A stretch of DNA of 26,994 bases from IMG/VR virus record IMGVR_UViG_3300023192_003943, positions 1-26,994 of that record; one strand, given 5' to 3'. Under the pieces are notes generated by a model that was given only the letters and a program-made list of their open reading frames with translations, was not told where the DNA came from and did not search any database. This DNA comes from a virus. Both the position numbers and the translations under genes were made by a program. Shown here piece by piece: positions 13,858 through 19,941 of the stretch (the first letter of the stretch is position 1; each line of letters opens with the position of its first letter).

Positions 13858-15468
13858 TTAATCATTCCATAAACCCGGAATTTGGGCAACATATGGTGTT
13901 GATTGTTTAGGGTTTGAAGGAGTTATTGTAGGCCATCCAGCTCCTTTAGGTTGTCCGGCTCCATAACTAAATAATGAATTTACATTACTATTATAGGGCA
14001 CATTTGAGATTAATTTTTCAGATATAGTATCTACTCCTCCACCTTTTGGTTCTCCCCCAGCATTTCCTAACCTATTTTTATATTTTGCAAATAAAGGACC
14101 ATGCTGTCCCTTTAAACTTAAAGATGTATTTTTTGCTTCTCCTAATGTATCTCCATGCTGGTAAGAATAAATAGGCCCAAAATCATCATGTAAACTTCTT
14201 TCTGCTATGGTATCAAAAATATTTTTTGCGGCTTCCTGTCCTGGGTGAAATTTATCAAACTTTGGGGGTTTTGTATGGTTTGGTAAATCTAATTGGGTAG
14301 CAGCAAGTATTTCAGTTGAATTCCCATAAGTATATGAATAAGGAAGACCTAAACTTCTTTCTGCTATAGTATCATATGCATCATTAGGGTTACCTGGTTC
14401 TTTTCCTATATTAAAAAATTTATTTCTATATTTAGCAAATTGGGGGCCTGATTGCCCATCTAAACTCCATTCAGATGGGGTTGCTTCTCCTGGAGTATCT
14501 CCATGGGTATAGGTATGGGGCTGGGTTAAACTTTCTTCATGAAGAGTATTTATTAAATTCTGACCTGAGGGGCCCTGTGTTTCTTCTCCCCTATTAAAAA
14601 TAGGAGGTGTAGTATGATCTGATAAATCTAAAGTAGTAGCTAGAGCTTCTCCCGGAGTATCTCCATGAGTATAGGTATGGGGTTGGGTTAAACTTTTTTC
14701 ATGAATGGTATCAATAATAGGATTGTTTGTATCCTGTGTTACTTCAACCCCTTTATCAAAAATAGGGGGGGTACTATGATCTGGTAGGTCTAAAGTAGTT
14801 GCTGGGGCTTCTCCTGGAGTGTTTCCATGTTGATAATTATAAATTTGGGTTAAACTTTTTTCATGAAGAGTATCAATAATCGGGGCATTTTTATCCTGTG
14901 TTACTTCAACCCCTTTATCAAAAATAGGAGGGGTACTATGATCTGGTAGATCTAAAGTAGTAGCTTTGGCTATTTCTGAAGAATTTCCATGTTGATACGA
15001 ATAGTCTGAATTTAAACTTTTTTCATGGAGAGTATCAATAATAGGGCTATTTTTATCTTGAGTTACTTCAACTCCTTTATCAAATTGAGGACCTGGTTGT
15101 CCATCTAAATCTTGATAGGGAGATGTTGTTGGGAGATTACCTAAAGAATCTGGTTGTAAGGTTGATTGTTTACCTAAATCAAATTGGGGGCCTGGTTGCC
15201 CATCTAAATCTTGATAGGGTGAAGTTGTAGGAACATCCCCCAATGAATCTTGCTGTAAAGTTGAAGTACTCCCTAAATCAAATTGAGGGCCTTGTTGTCC
15301 ATCAATATCTTGATAAGGGGAAATAGTAGGGATATTAGCTAAAGAATCTTGCTGTAGAGTTGATTGTTTACCTAAATCAAATTGAGCAGGGTTTACATTT
15401 TTCATTTCAGATACAGGAGATTGCCCTCCTACTAAATCAAATTGTGATTTTAAATTTTTTAGTCCCAT
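13858..15468 (-). CDS. Repetitive tail protein with two families of tandem units
   Basis: I do not recognise a function for this 536-aa protein. Residues 29-127 are three exact-length 33-aa units (QFDLG, STLQ, DSL, PT.SPYQD.DGQ.GP). From 129 to 459 there are six longer units of 53-60 aa beginning F(D/A/N) and containing a (D/N)T(L/I) HEKSL or AERSL segment, Y(S/N/T)Y.(H/Y)G and DLP(D/N)H or an equivalent; the first three are exactly 54 aa and nearly identical. A seventh degenerate unit forms the C-terminus, which ends in PGLWND. No membrane span, cysteine pattern or catalytic motif is visible. It sits between the tape measure and baseplate genes and has its own TATTTATA box 16 nt before ATG. 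A repeated docking or cross-linking role in the tail is possible, but is guesswork. Confidence 0.85.
   Translation of the reverse strand: MGLKNLKSQFDLVGGQSPVSEMKNVNPAQFDLGKQSTLQQDSLANIPTISPYQDIDGQQGPQFDLGSTSTLQQDSLGDVPTTSPYQDLDGQPGPQFDLGKQSTLQPDSLGNLPTTSPYQDLDGQPGPQFDKGVEVTQDKNSPIIDTLHEKSLNSDYSYQHGNSSEIAKATTLDLPDHSTPPIFDKGVEVTQDKNAPIIDTLHEKSLTQIYNYQHGNTPGEAPATTLDLPDHSTPPIFDKGVEVTQDTNNPIIDTIHEKSLTQPHTYTHGDTPGEALATTLDLSDHTTPPIFNRGEETQGPSGQNLINTLHEESLTQPHTYTHGDTPGEATPSEWSLDGQSGPQFAKYRNKFFNIGKEPGNPNDAYDTIAERSLGLPYSYTYGNSTEILAATQLDLPNHTKPPKFDKFHPGQEAAKNIFDTIAERSLHDDFGPIYSYQHGDTLGEAKNTSLSLKGQHGPLFAKYKNRLGNAGGEPKGGGVDTISEKLISNVPYNSNVNSLFSYGAGQPKGAGWPTITPSNPKQSTPYVAQIPGLWND
14092..15084 (-). repeat. 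Tandem coding repeats, long family (six units)
   Basis: Unit spans are 14923-15084, 14761-14922 and 14599-14760 (162 bp each, 54 aa), then 14440-14598, 14260-14439 and 14092-14259 (159, 180 and 168 bp). The first three are very similar at DNA level; later ones diverge and differ in length, which fits expansion by duplication at the 5' side. Confidence 0.85.
15088..15384 (-). repeat. Tandem coding repeats, short family (three 99-bp units)
   Basis: Three consecutive 33-codon units (residues 29-61, 62-94, 95-127). A partial copy of the unit start, QFDL, lies at residues 9-12. The unit end GQPGPQFD merges into the first long unit, and a similar GQSGPQFA and GQHGPLFA occur at ends of long units, so the two families appear related by a shared boundary. 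Confidence 0.88.
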
Positions 15469-15492: not shown

Positions 15493-17988
15493 TTAACCAT
15501 ATATTTTAGATTGATGGTTGTTTTCCATAAACTGAACGTTCAATCCATGAGGAGAATTCAATGCTCTTTGGCTAAAGTCTATTGTTGGTGGTTTTGATTT
15601 TTCATTTGCCATTACCATAGCATCAACCATATCTTCTTTTGTTAATCCCAAAGTATTCCCTCCTCCTTGGGCCAGAGCAAATAAATTTGCTTGTTGGTTT
15701 TTATTCAATATCATTTCTCCTGAATTTACCATAGCTGGGACCTTATCGCCTGTTTCTGAATCCCCTGGTACAATACCACCTTCTGCAAACATATATTTAG
15801 CAGCCATACCCGCTACAGTAACCCCAGCAGCCAAACCTAAAGCCCAACCAATAAAAGGTATAGAAGAAAGAGAAGCAATAACTTTAAACACAGCCGTCCC
15901 TACAGCTCTTGTTAAACCAGTTGCTTCCCGTATTGCTCTTCTAGCAGCAAATCCTTGTTCTACCATCAGATACCCTAAATAAACTCCTTTCATAATATTA
16001 CTTGCTGCCTGAATTATTTTTATAGCTTTCATAGTCCCCCATATAGTTAACATAGCAATTGATATAGTACCTACAATACCCTCCATTACACTTAATTCCT
16101 TATTACTCCCAGTAAATAAACCTACCATTTTAGATACACTTGTAATAATATAATTTATGGGCTCTAATGCTAACGTTAATAAATTTAAAAACATAGAAAG
16201 TGGCCCTCCAACTAAATCAACAAATATTCCTTTCAATTTTAAAACAGCATCTGCCATTTTTTCTTCAATAGATCTAGCTTCTAATCTTTTTGCTAAATCT
16301 TCATTTCCAGCAGCTCTTGCTTCTTGAGCTAATTGGGCTAAATTTTCTTTCTTTAAAAGAGCATCAGATAATTCATTTACTTCCATACCAACAGCTGTTG
16401 CTAATGCTTTTTGTTGAAGAACATTCATTTTAGTAAAATCTCCCCAATCCCCTACATTGGCTGCTATTTCTTTAGTTAAAGTTTCATAATCCCCAGTTAA
16501 TGCTGCTAAACGAGCTTTTTCAAGGTTAAGTTGTTTTCCTGTAAGTAGTTCTGCTTGTAATTCAGCTTCAATACTTGATTGAAAATCCAAAAATTGTCCC
16601 CCTGCGGATGCAATCTTTTCTAATTCAAACCCTAATTGTTTTGCTACTGCAACTGCTTTAGCAATTGCCTCTGGGTTTGCCCCCAATTGAGCCCTAATTT
16701 GGCCTGTGATTTTTCCCGTAGCCTCTAAAATTTCTTTAATATTTAACCTAACTCCAAACTCCGCTTCAGCAGCAACAACCGCCCCAATCATATCTTCTTT
16801 TATTTGCCCTAAGGGCTTACCAGCAACAATAGCGGCTTTTGCTAATTCAGCTGTTGATTCAGCTGATAAACCCATTTTTTCTGATAAAATGGTAGCCTGA
16901 GTAACTACTTCAGGATAACTGGTTAAAAGGATAGTAGAAGAGGTTCCAAAAGAAGCATTTAAAGAATTAAAAGTTTTTAATAATCTTTCAGAATTAACCG
17001 CCATATCACCTGAAACATTAGCTGCCATTCCCATTTGTTCTCTAAGAACAAATGCTTCTGTTGCTGATAAACCTAAATTCTTTTGTAAAGCGGTTGTTTG
17101 TTTATTAAAATCTAAAGCTGCTTGGAGATAAACTAAAGGATCATTAATGTTTGATATTATAGATTTACCTATTTCTTCGGTAAGGATTCTAAAACCATCC
17201 AATTTAGTAGCATTCTCTCCATGTAGTTCTTTTTCTTTTTGTAAAACCAGTAATTTTTCTCTAGATTTGTTTAATATACTATCTGTGTTTCCTAAAGCCC
17301 CCCCTAATAATTTATTAATTACTTTAAGTCCTTGCCCAGAAAGCCCCATGGCTTTTTCTACCGCTAATAATGTTTTCTCTTCTTTTTCTAAAGCTGCTAC
17401 TATCTCATCTGATACCCCTAAAATTTTCTTTGAAGTCATAAGTTGTACTTCATCATTTGACATGGCTTTAACTCTAGTAGCTAAACTTCTTTCATGGCTT
17501 TGTATTTGTCTTGCAAGGTTTTTTTCTGTTTTTTCATCAACTACTAATCCAGCTTTTTTCTTATCTTGCATTAATGCAAGTTCTTTTTTCTGATTTACAA
17601 TTCCCCTTTCTATATTAATAGCAAAATTAATTCTCTTTTCTTCGAGTGATAATACATCTTTATTAGCCCCCCTAAATATACTAATTAAATTATTATTGGT
17701 TTTTTGAATTTGTGATTGTTTATCTCTAAGAGTATTTAAACTTTTACTAATATCCTTTAAATCAGTATATTCACTTTTTAATTTACGAGAAGCATTAACT
17801 AATTGGTTTGAAACGTTTAATGAATCCTTATCTATTCGATAAGAACCTTCTTTTATAATATTAATGTGACGAAGTTGATCATTTAAATCAACTGATCTAT
17901 CATAATACTGTTGCATTAAATCAACAGTTTCTCTATCGGGGGGTAAAGAACCACCAGAAGGGGAAGGGGTTTTGGGATCGTCTGCCAT
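15493..17988 (-). CDS. Tail tape measure protein
   Basis: The 831-aa protein would set tail length and occupy the tube lumen before DNA passage. It is largely helical: residues about 20-290 are charged coiled coil rich in Lys/Glu/Leu, 300-570 are Ala-rich helices, and about 590-735 are hydrophobic helices with GGPLSMFLNLLTLALEPINY and SSIPFIGWALGLAAGVTVAG, typical of the membrane-active part of tape measures. The C-terminal region from 735 starts AEGGIVPGDSETGDKVPAMV and NSGEMILN, a very common tape-measure motif. Its place directly after the tail-assembly chaperone frames is the conserved one. It has its own TATTTATA box 21 nt before ATG. T4 gp29 is 590 aa, so this tail should be longer than that of T4 if the length rule holds. 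Confidence 0.92.
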   Translation of the reverse strand: MADDPKTPSPSGGSLPPDRETVDLMQQYYDRSVDLNDQLRHINIIKEGSYRIDKDSLNVSNQLVNASRKLKSEYTDLKDISKSLNTLRDKQSQIQKTNNNLISIFRGANKDVLSLEEKRINFAINIERGIVNQKKELALMQDKKKAGLVVDEKTEKNLARQIQSHERSLATRVKAMSNDEVQLMTSKKILGVSDEIVAALEKEEKTLLAVEKAMGLSGQGLKVINKLLGGALGNTDSILNKSREKLLVLQKEKELHGENATKLDGFRILTEEIGKSIISNINDPLVYLQAALDFNKQTTALQKNLGLSATEAFVLREQMGMAANVSGDMAVNSERLLKTFNSLNASFGTSSTILLTSYPEVVTQATILSEKMGLSAESTAELAKAAIVAGKPLGQIKEDMIGAVVAAEAEFGVRLNIKEILEATGKITGQIRAQLGANPEAIAKAVAVAKQLGFELEKIASAGGQFLDFQSSIEAELQAELLTGKQLNLEKARLAALTGDYETLTKEIAANVGDWGDFTKMNVLQQKALATAVGMEVNELSDALLKKENLAQLAQEARAAGNEDLAKRLEARSIEEKMADAVLKLKGIFVDLVGGPLSMFLNLLTLALEPINYIITSVSKMVGLFTGSNKELSVMEGIVGTISIAMLTIWGTMKAIKIIQAASNIMKGVYLGYLMVEQGFAARRAIREATGLTRAVGTAVFKVIASLSSIPFIGWALGLAAGVTVAGMAAKYMFAEGGIVPGDSETGDKVPAMVNSGEMILNKNQQANLFALAQGGGNTLGLTKEDMVDAMVMANEKSKPPTIDFSQRALNSPHGLNVQFMENNHQSKIYG

Positions 17989-18052: not shown

Positions 18053-18322
18053 TTAAAAATTATATGTTGATGATGGTTTTACATTAGGACCTCTAACATC
18101 TTTAGAATCTGGGGATTGGCCTTTAGAAACGTTTTCATATTCTGTATTCTGTTTTTCAATAAATTGATTTATTCTGTGAATATGAAATCTTCTAAGCCAT
18201 ATGGGCATGTGGTATACTTCAGAATGAATAAATCCTCCTCCTCCATGATATGTTAAATCATGAATTTGATTAAAAATCTCAATTCTATATTTAGAGGTCA
18301 GGCCAAAAAAAGCTAACCCCAA
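18053..18322 (-). CDS. Second tail-assembly chaperone frame, possibly made by frameshift from the gp26-like gene
   Basis: The frame encodes up to 89 aa: GLTSKYRIEIFNQIHDLTYHGGGGFIHSEVYHMPIWLRRFHIHRINQFIEKQN. The VYHMPIWLRRF segment is the hallmark of the small T4-like protein (gp51-type) encoded after gp26. There is no ATG at a useful position; the only start codon is a TTG at 18322, with AGGAGG 15 nt upstream, and a stop lies 9 codons before it. The frame overlaps the gp26-like gene by 32 nt in the +1 frame, and a run of seven T in the overlap (18305-18311) would allow a +1 or -2 slip giving a fused product. Either internal TTG initiation or frameshift could express it. The position just before the tape measure gene matches tail-assembly chaperones in general. 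Confidence 0.75.
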   Translation of the reverse strand: MGLAFFGLTSKYRIEIFNQIHDLTYHGGGGFIHSEVYHMPIWLRRFHIHRINQFIEKQNTEYENVSKGQSPDSKDVRGPNVKPSSTYNF

Positions 18323-19070
18323 TAGGGATTTGTACGTCCTCCTCTACGTATCCATCTTCGGATTCAAAATCAAAAGTTAAATTTACATCAGGCATTATCT
18401 GTTTTGCATATTCCCTTAATGACCTAGAATCTCTTGCTAATAAAGCATTATCAACAAAATCCCTTATGGTTTTTTGTTCATAATCTCCATTTACTGAGAG
18501 TATTACATGCTTTAAACGAGTAGTTAATTCTGCCCCCCCTTTATTAAGTTTTTGAAGGCCCTTTAATTCTTGTTCAATTTTTCTTTCAACACCATGAGTT
18601 AAAAGTTGAAAAGTAATATTAACTTTTGAATGAGGCAAAATAAATTCAAATTCATTTTTACCCCCTATAATTAAATCTTCATTAATTACTTTATCTTCAA
18701 CCCCCGATAAATCTATTGTTGTTTCTTCTTCAATTCCTGTTTTGGGGTGAGGGTATTTAAAAGTATATGAAGAACCATAACCTAAAATACGGGCAGCAAT
18801 TAATATTGCATTTTTATCTCCTATTAAAAGATCATTATAATCTATAGAAGTTATAATTAATGATTGTAATAATTTATCAATTACTGTTCCTTTTGTGATT
18901 AAATTTTGATTTGTTAAAATATCCTCTTCCCTTGCTGTCATATACTTCATCTCAATAGTGCCTTTTGAAAGCGGACTATCTTTAGAATATAGTAATCCTT
19001 TTGAGGGTAATGTGACTTCTTCTGTTGGGAATTTAAATTTTGATTCTGCTTGTTGTGTTTGTGCTTCCAT
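18291..19070 (-). CDS. T4 gp26-like baseplate/tail-assembly protein
   Basis: The 259-aa protein fits the T4 baseplate gp26 family. It begins with FPTEEVTLPSKGLLYSKDSP, then GTIEMKYMTAREEDILTNQN, and TVIDKLLQSLIITSIDYNDLLIGDKNAILIAARILGYGSSY, all family features. The C-terminal part is helical and charged and ends in IPIGVSFFWPDL. In T4 this protein is needed for hub/baseplate assembly; the gene order tube, gp26-like, overlapping small frame, tape measure suggests a tail-assembly chaperone function. It has its own promoter-like box (TATGTATA) 25 nt before ATG and follows a strong terminator. Its last codons carry the T7 run discussed under findings. Confidence 0.85.
   Translation of the reverse strand: MEAQTQQAESKFKFPTEEVTLPSKGLLYSKDSPLSKGTIEMKYMTAREEDILTNQNLITKGTVIDKLLQSLIITSIDYNDLLIGDKNAILIAARILGYGSSYTFKYPHPKTGIEEETTIDLSGVEDKVINEDLIIGGKNEFEFILPHSKVNITFQLLTHGVERKIEQELKGLQKLNKGGAELTTRLKHVILSVNGDYEQKTIRDFVDNALLARDSRSLREYAKQIMPDVNLTFDFESEDGYVEEDVQIPIGVSFFWPDL
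18305..18311 (-). other. Candidate slippery run (T7) in the gp26-like / small-frame overlap
   Basis: Zero frame reads AGC TTT TTT TGG CCT GAC CTC TAA. A +1 or -2 slip on the T run continues as GGC CTG ACC TCT AAA TAT and enters the 89-aa frame. A -1 slip meets TGA at once. AGGAGG lies about 25 nt upstream. The frameshift itself is inferred. Confidence 0.5.
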
Positions 19071-19161: not shown

Positions 19162-19386
19162 TTATTTTTTATCAAATAAACTCCAAAGAACAATTAATGC
19201 AATTAGTCCTACAAATCCACCTTCTCCTAATTGTCCTACTATACTCATTACATTCCCTATAATATCCCACCCAAAGGCAGCTTCAGCAAATGTAATTTGA
19301 ACCACTATGCCTAAACATAGTATTTTCATTAGTATTTGAGTTAAATTCCCTACAAAGGAACTGATGTTGTTAAATACACTTTCCAT
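19162..19386 (-). CDS. Small two-span membrane protein between tube and chaperone genes
   Basis: The 74-aa product has two hydrophobic segments: about 13-37 (VGNLTQILMKILCLGIVVQI and on) and about 50-71 (VGQLGEGGFVGLIALIVLWSLF), joined by a short loop with FGWDIIGN and ending in DKK. The Gly-rich second span and the charged C-terminal tip resemble small phage membrane proteins, including some holins, but nothing proves lysis function and no endolysin gene adjoins. It is enclosed by two terminators (19425-19448 before it, 19109-19139 after it), and has no TATTTATA box, so it may be expressed by read-through from the tube gene. The start is ATG at 19386, without a Shine-Dalgarno. Confidence 0.75.
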   Translation of the reverse strand: MESVFNNISSFVGNLTQILMKILCLGIVVQITFAEAAFGWDIIGNVMSIVGQLGEGGFVGLIALIVLWSLFDKK

Positions 19387-19452: not shown

Positions 19453-19941
19453 TTAGTAGTTTAATATTGCGTAATCCATTCGTATAACAATACTAATGTT
19501 CATTGGGGTTTCACCTACTGACCAGTCAGCCTCCCCAAAATTCGCAGATTTTACATAGGCACCTTTACAAATCCATTCTTCAACTACATCCCCAACAGGG
19601 CCAAGCGCATTAAATCTAATATCTTTTTTATAGAAATCAGAATAACCATCTCTACCTGTTACGGATTCATGTGATAAACGAACCCATTCCATTACTGATT
19701 GTGCTCCTGAAGGAGTTACGGGATCATATAATTCAGCAGTTATATCTTGCCAATCGGCTTTGCCTTTTAGTTTTCTTTTAATATTAATATGTTCTAATGT
19801 TACATCACCAAAGGATACATTAGGGCGACCTACTTTCCTAACTAAATAAGCAGGAATACCATCAATGTACATTATAAACCTATTTTGCATTTTGGGTTCA
19901 AATGCAGTGAAAAACATTTCGTTTGTATCTAAAATTGCCAT
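19453..19941 (-). CDS. Tail tube protein, T4 gp19-like
   Basis: The 162-aa protein would form the inner tube of the contractile tail. It matches the T4 gp19 family in length (163 aa in T4) and motifs: FFTAFEPKMQNRFIMYIDGIPAYLVRKVGRP at the start, LEHINIKRKLKGKADWQDITAELYDPVTPSGAQSV in the middle, and SANFGEADWSVGETPMNISIVIRMDYAILNY at the end. It is the second gene of a sheath-tube pair, the universal order in contractile tails, and has its own TATTTATA box 22 nt before ATG plus a terminator after it, so it can be made in excess of neighbours, as needed for a major virion protein. Confidence 0.93.
   Translation of the reverse strand: MAILDTNEMFFTAFEPKMQNRFIMYIDGIPAYLVRKVGRPNVSFGDVTLEHINIKRKLKGKADWQDITAELYDPVTPSGAQSVMEWVRLSHESVTGRDGYSDFYKKDIRFNALGPVGDVVEEWICKGAYVKSANFGEADWSVGETPMNISIVIRMDYAILNY

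Follow-up and report, generated by a model that had tools for sequence, protein, structure and literature searches.

A proposed +1 ribosomal frameshift on UUU-Y in a phage gene family related to T4 gp26 and gp51, with -1 frameshift and gene duplication as alternatives within the family

The virus record IMGVR_UViG_3300023192_003943, from a marine phage (positions 1 to 26,994; this whole 26,994-nucleotide [nt] stretch is called the window here), carries on its minus strand a gp26-like gene that ends just past a run of seven T residues (T7), and a second open reading frame (ORF), which we call the T-domain, continues beyond its stop codon. How is the T-domain translated? An earlier note on the sequence had proposed a programmed slip on the T run, by +1 or -2, since a -1 shift meets a stop. 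Re-reading the sequence confirmed this layout. The gene ends with AGC (18314-18312), TTT (18311-18309), TTT (18308-18306), TGG (18305-18303), CCT, GAC, CTC and TAA (18293-18291), and the T-domain frame runs from GGC at 18304 through a stop at 18055-18053. It can be reached by +1 or -2, while the -1 frame hits TGA almost immediately, and the sole ATG of the second frame lies within the conserved VYHMPIW segment (+85). From comparison with related sequences, we estimate a probability of roughly 0.87 that a +1 ribosomal frameshift on UUU-Y yields a short and a long tail assembly chaperone. The features at the junction are as follows.

18291 to 19070, minus strand: gp26-like gene (PF12322 and phrog_150 matches), zero-frame product of 259 amino acids (aa), proposed short (G-type) tail assembly chaperone.
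18305 to 18311, minus strand: slip site T7, zero-frame TTT TTT T(GG), with a proposed +1 slip of tRNA-Phe on UUU-U.
18294 to 18304, minus strand: dual-coding overlap, WPDL in frame 0 and GLTS in frame +1; in relatives the Pro codon is CCT in 94/95 and the Asp codon GAC in 81/83.
18053 to 18304, minus strand: T-domain, the +1-frame ORF reached from the slip site, giving a fusion product of 338 aa.

We assembled relatives by scanning viral contigs with the gp26-like protein (80, at 57-68% identity) and added more from an alignment query, which gave 139 non-identical loci and 102 representatives below 80% nt identity. A search of a genome collection returned two loci only. At the junction, 139/139 non-identical loci have an in-frame TTT with T or C as the next base, and 116 of the 139 have exactly TTTTTTTGGCCTGA. 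Among the representatives, the slip codon is TTT in 102/102, the Phe codon before it is TTT in 95/95, and T7 is retained in 95 of the 102. Phe codons at the site are thus TTT in 197/197 cases versus 741 TTT to 159 TTC elsewhere in the same genes (Fisher p = 2e-15; the rows of these sets share ancestry, so this and the following p-values are indicative only). Anchored at the first TTT, the site reads TTT YTT T GG CCT GA, with T at position 4 in 93 and C in 7 (n=100). Within the window, the slip site is the only in-frame T7 in 8,340 codons of the window genes. These results show that the two-frame arrangement at T7 is real and far from chance. A pseudogene or sequencing error, in which an extra T breaks one fused frame, would draw on the homopolymer alone, and we give it almost no weight because 139 independent sequences share the arrangement, as do cultured phages; a simple misread of six T, which would leave a single fused frame, is excluded by the many independent contigs and isolates.

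The second frame behaves as coding sequence from the slip site onward. In 102/102 representatives the second ORF lies in the +1 frame and is conserved from the slip, starting exactly at FFGLT, whereas upstream of the slip this frame is variable and is closed by a stop at codon -10 in 26 loci and at codon -6 in 20. Its codon-position entropies of 0.84/0.61/1.36 show a translated protein under purifying selection. The T-domain has a weak match, under the cutoff of 27, to PF20546 (DUF6760; 18.2 bits, E 0.0026), a family for which we found no paper in the literature searched, and its structural model is helical with a predicted local distance difference test (pLDDT) score of 78. The annotations of the isolates immuto, Mel-JY01 and SP-15 (L088, L089 and L090) give the T-domain as a hypothetical protein that is short or starts late. 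We also found a PF12322 gene with GAA TTT TTT CGT and a +1 T-domain on an Erysipelotrichaceae metagenome-assembled genome contig (L261), which probably represents a prophage or a phage.

A rival reading is translation of the second ORF as its own gene, from an internal TTG, GTG or ATG with AGGAGG as the ribosome site. It fits the TTG at 18322 of the window, which lies downstream of AGGAGG, the GGAGG in about half of the relatives, the ATG at or just past the gp26 stop in Cygsa01, RL38J1, LR756511 and the cyanophages, and the annotation of Mel-JY01, which follows it. However, 41 of the 102 representatives lack ATG, GTG and TTG throughout the interval that opens after the preceding stop and closes 12 codons beyond the slip (in L061 no start codon is found in the stretch listed), many loci have second-frame stops between GGAGG and the slip, and the second-frame residues upstream of the slip are unconserved. 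About 15 nt separate AGGAGG from the window TTG, and Shine-Dalgarno (SD) sites precede only 2 of 25 window genes, a scarcity shared with Bacteroidota. We therefore consider independent initiation quite unlikely. The earlier note had asked whether related phages keep the T run and the missing start codon, and both parts of that comparison came out strongly positive. The TTG of the window has no conserved counterpart in the relatives that could serve as a start.

The direction of the slip is best read from relatives in which the T run is interrupted (TTTCTTT, TTTCTA, TTCTTTTGG and TTCTTTCGT) and the +1 relation is retained. The T-domain is still in the +1 frame behind TTTCTTTGG in immuto, L053, L059 and L260, behind TTCTTTTGG in L194, L195 and L203, behind TTCTTTCGT or TTCTTTCAT in L187, L200 and L201, behind TTTTTTCGT in L182, L183, L186 and L261, and behind TTTCTATTC in LR756508. 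Perfect -2 re-pairing and polymerase slippage on a homopolymer are impossible at these broken runs, and movement of tRNA-Phe from UUU to UUU or UUC is possible at all of them. Because these relatives keep the +1 relation and exclude -2 re-pairing, +1 slippage in the P site on UUU-Y is the simplest common mechanism.

A -2 frameshift of the type used by the Mu tail gene (PMC5009743), which would add one Phe, has in its favor that T7 is kept in nearly all representatives with an invariant TTT at codon -1, so that re-pairing at -2 on T7 would be perfect. Members with TTC TTT TGG, TTC TTT CGT, TTT CTT TGG or TTT CTA TTC have the same frame relation and cannot re-pair in this way, and tandem UUU codons would offer two chances for a +1 slip, which accounts for T7. 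We regard the -2 shift as quite unlikely; the slip geometry set out in the earlier note stands, and its Mu precedent very probably does not carry over. Transcriptional slippage, losing one T or gaining two, is a mechanism known elsewhere (PMC5009743) and would find a homopolymer in an AT-rich genome, but the relatives with TTTCTTT or TTCTTT lack the run. The codon before the run also bears on this. Asn is AAC in 43/46 cases (background 23%) and Ser is AGC in 21/27 (background 4%), and this combined choice of a non-T base before the run (p about 1e-23) limits the run to seven rather than extending it. We judge slippage of the polymerase very unlikely. The AAC/AGC choice keeps the base before the run non-T and therefore destroys the -1 heptamer U_UUU_UUU and fixes the E-site codon.

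In the +1 frameshift that we favor, the P-site tRNA-Phe would move +1 from UUU to UUU or UUC, with an efficiency set probably by the A-site codon (UUU, CUU, UGG, CGU or CAU) and by a conserved upstream element. The feature corresponding to this element in the window is the following.

18312 to 18346, minus strand: cis-element under synonymous constraint, comprising AGGAGG (18343-18338), a GGG Gly codon and AGC directly before the T run.

Synonymous codon choice is skewed across about 35 nt upstream of the slip: Glu is GAG at codon -10 in 52/64 (14% background, p about 1e-31), Gly is GGG at codon -3 in 31/65 (7% background, p 2e-17), and Leu is biased to CTT at codon -2 (p 1e-12). The window has its AGGAGG 26 nt ahead of the T run, and about half of the loci carry a GGAGG/AGGAG tract 23-27 nt ahead of the first slip T; in a distant branch (n=58) a tract of this type is at 23 nt in 21 loci and at 17 nt in 14. 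This spacing matches neither initiation nor release factor 2 (RF2) geometry. The earlier note had offered AGGAGG either as a stimulator or as the ribosome site of the TTG; the tract is conserved, but with a spacing of 17-27 nt and intervening stops in many relatives it would serve the second frame poorly as a ribosome site. Positions -50 to -2 show a modest excess of structure over mononucleotide shuffles (mean z -1.5). We rejected the possibility that the upstream purine tract pairs with sequence 3' of the slip, because exchanged partners paired just as well.

Several results weigh against a +1 frameshift in a tail chaperone gene. The T7 members geometrically permit -2 slippage and transcript slippage, and 61 of the 102 representatives carry some ATG, GTG or TTG in the open stretch, as the window carries a TTG, so that the second ORF may be initiated independently in individual cases. 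A downstream stimulatory structure was not found (fold z +0.71 in the window, mean z -0.16 to -0.52 over relatives). The structural likeness to a known chaperone is weak. We modeled the two halves of the 338-aa fusion separately, and the gp26 model (pLDDT 91) had only one notable match in the PDB, the HK97 tail assembly chaperone 2ob9 (Foldseek probability 0.60, E 0.44; the next match had 0.03), which VIA aligned with Z 5.0 over 82 residues at 7.0 Å. This weak match agrees with the predicted chaperone function.

The gene itself matched PF12322 with 29.3 bits (E 8.4e-7), above the curated cutoff of 24.5, and phrog_150, "baseplate hub," with E 1.1e-13. T4 gp26 and gp51 have been catalogued as chaperones of hub assembly; assembly requires gp51, which is absent from the particle (PMC3004832). 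The earlier note had placed the site between the tube and tape measure genes, and profile matches bear this out, with the order tube, gp26-like gene, tape measure.

19453 to 19941, minus strand: tail tube gene, upstream (phrog_4542, E 5.6e-25).
15493 to 17988, minus strand: tape measure gene, downstream (phrog_24676, E 1.1e-14).

If the system works as lambda gpG/gpGT does (PMC5009743), the tape measure protein would be coated by the short form, with tube subunits brought in by the rare fusion. One 74-aa ORF with hydrophobic stretches is also present beside the tube gene, between it and the gp26-like gene (19162-19386, minus strand); it has weak family matches (best E 0.03) and is possibly a membrane protein. 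Downstream of the tape measure gene lies a 536-aa protein of degenerate repeats (PQFDLG...TLQQDSL...TSPYQDLDGQ; 13858-15468, minus strand).

The arrangement extends beyond the window in a second form. In T4-like phages with genes of the PF12322 family, the T-domain comes immediately after gp26 but in the -1 frame. The alignment of the cyanophage branch was too divergent for a pattern scan, and we used single-sequence scans instead; gp26 ends in NNT TTT TTC G, that is, U_UUU_UUC, in 84/84 loci of the cyanophage, phiAS5 and Aeh1 set, which is redundant. The cyanophages have an additional ATG a few bases past the gp26 stop, phiAS5 and Aeh1 lack all three start codons (ATG, GTG and TTG) ahead of the T-domain, and Cygsa01, RL38J1 and LR756511 have instead a coupled ATG overlapping the stop. 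In Aeh1 (L265; NC_005260, 119001-119777), gp26 is annotated and gp51 is not, and a gp51-type T-domain that has no start codon follows U_UUU_UUC in the -1 frame. According to Sullivan et al. (2010), gp51 is missing only in Aeh1, and cyanophage gp51 is without its first ~200 residues (PMC3037559). We propose that both the "truncated" cyanophage gp51 and the absence of gp51 from Aeh1 arise because the T-domain is expressed by frameshifting.

T4 gp51 connects these forms. Residues 1-201 of gp51 match PF12322 (E 3.9e-52), and gp51 is a gp26 paralogue, consisting of a PF12322 domain and a T-domain tail in a single frame. A hidden Markov model of the cyanophage T-domain matches the last ~45 residues of 8/8 gp51 proteins tested (16-31 bits), and the fused -1 cyanophage proteins align with gp51 from one end to the other, over 234 columns spanning the junction (E 1.4e-17, probability 98.9). 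T-domain profiles link the window to the distant +1 branch (8e-21), to the cyanophages (2e-7) and to gp51 tails (1e-11). Directly compared, the window T-domain and the gp51 tail are weakly alike (E 0.002, 15%), and the connection runs through intermediates. When the profile of the entire window fusion was compared with gp51, the match was not significant, and a sequence search of the PDB with gp51 found no relative.

In a tree of 59 gp26-type domains (midpoint root, several long branches), the +1 users fall together on one side of a branch (40 rows including one coupled member, support 100/100). The T4-type gp26 and gp51 duplicates group together (99/96), beside the phiAS5-type -1 users (87/79) and within the -1 users and coupled genes. 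In Enterobacter phage EC-F2 (L348, 1501-2794) and Klebsiella phage phiKp_23 (L352, 1501-2795), gp51-like and gp26-like copies are in tandem and overlap, which is consistent with tandem duplication. Judging polarity from the tree, T4 gp26/gp51 probably replaced the frameshift by gene duplication, which suggests that T4 is a derived exception to the G-T frameshift. A wider scenario, which we put forward tentatively and hold somewhat short of even odds, is that the T4 superfamily ancestrally frameshifted on Phe codons, now in +1 UUU-Y and -1 U_UUU_UUC clades, that the T4 type escaped by duplicating the gene into a short gp26 and a long, in-frame gp51, and that the slip of the +1 clade is driven by a new ~35-nt upstream element (GGAGG at a distance of 17-27 nt, GGG and a fixed E-site codon) in hosts without SD initiation.

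The proposed expression of a PF12322 tail chaperone through a +1 frameshift on UUU-Y, with -1 and duplication alternatives within the same family, is new as far as our search goes: we found no description in the literature searched, which mostly did not cover subscription journals, so priority is unproven. The phenomenon is broader than the window, with a +1 clade, a probable -1 shift in the cyanophage/phiAS5/Aeh1 branch and a duplicated pair in T4, and reading gp26 as the G form and gp51 as the GT form of a tail assembly chaperone would give these one unifying explanation. The second half of the gene has been overlooked or mis-started in the cultured phages immuto, Mel-JY01, SP-15, Aeh1 and phiAS5. 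The large natural series of UUU-Y sites, with its constrained E-site codon and conserved upstream element, is a resource on bacterial +1 stimulation.

Compared with known systems, the closest homologues are those of T4, where gp26 corresponds to the short product of the window and gp51 is the counterpart of the fusion in one frame; unlike the window, T4 has two separate genes and no frameshift. The cyanophage "gp51, baseplate hub assembly catalyst" (about 60 aa) is a homologous T-domain right after gp26 but is in the -1 frame after U_UUU_UUC, with its nearby ATG. In slip geometry the site resembles influenza A PA-X, where UCC_UUU_CGU directs a +1 shift proven by mass spectrometry; that study also predicted a UUU_C class in which the E- and A-site codons are restricted (PMC3498833). 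The two would share a P-site UUU-C slip and have in common a restricted E-site codon, and the exact UUU_CGU occurs in the SP-15-like/Erysipelotrichaceae branch, although PA-X is an unrelated gene read by eukaryotic ribosomes. The RF2 gene prfB of Bacteroidia, with AGGAGGUAUCUU_UGA, is similar in its +1 shift at a pyrimidine-rich P codon, its upstream SD-like element and its hosts, which rarely use SD; Bacteroidota prfB often retains an SD-containing +1 frameshift site despite little SD use (PMC8710568). Unlike prfB, window-type sites have a spacing of 17-27 nt and a sense codon. The gpG/gpGT frameshifts are -1 in lambda, -2 in Mu and +1 in others (Xu, Hendrix and Duda 2004, reviewed in PMC5009743), and the G-T frameshift has been called widespread "except T4" (PMC5009743). 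The window locus is like gpG/gpGT in its position between tube and tape measure genes, in its short protein with a proposed rare C-terminal fusion in an overlapping frame and in the weak likeness of its G part to the HK97 chaperone; it differs in belonging to the PF12322 (T4 gp26/gp51) family, in its proposed +1 shift on UUU-Y and in its lineage, the very one listed as the exception.
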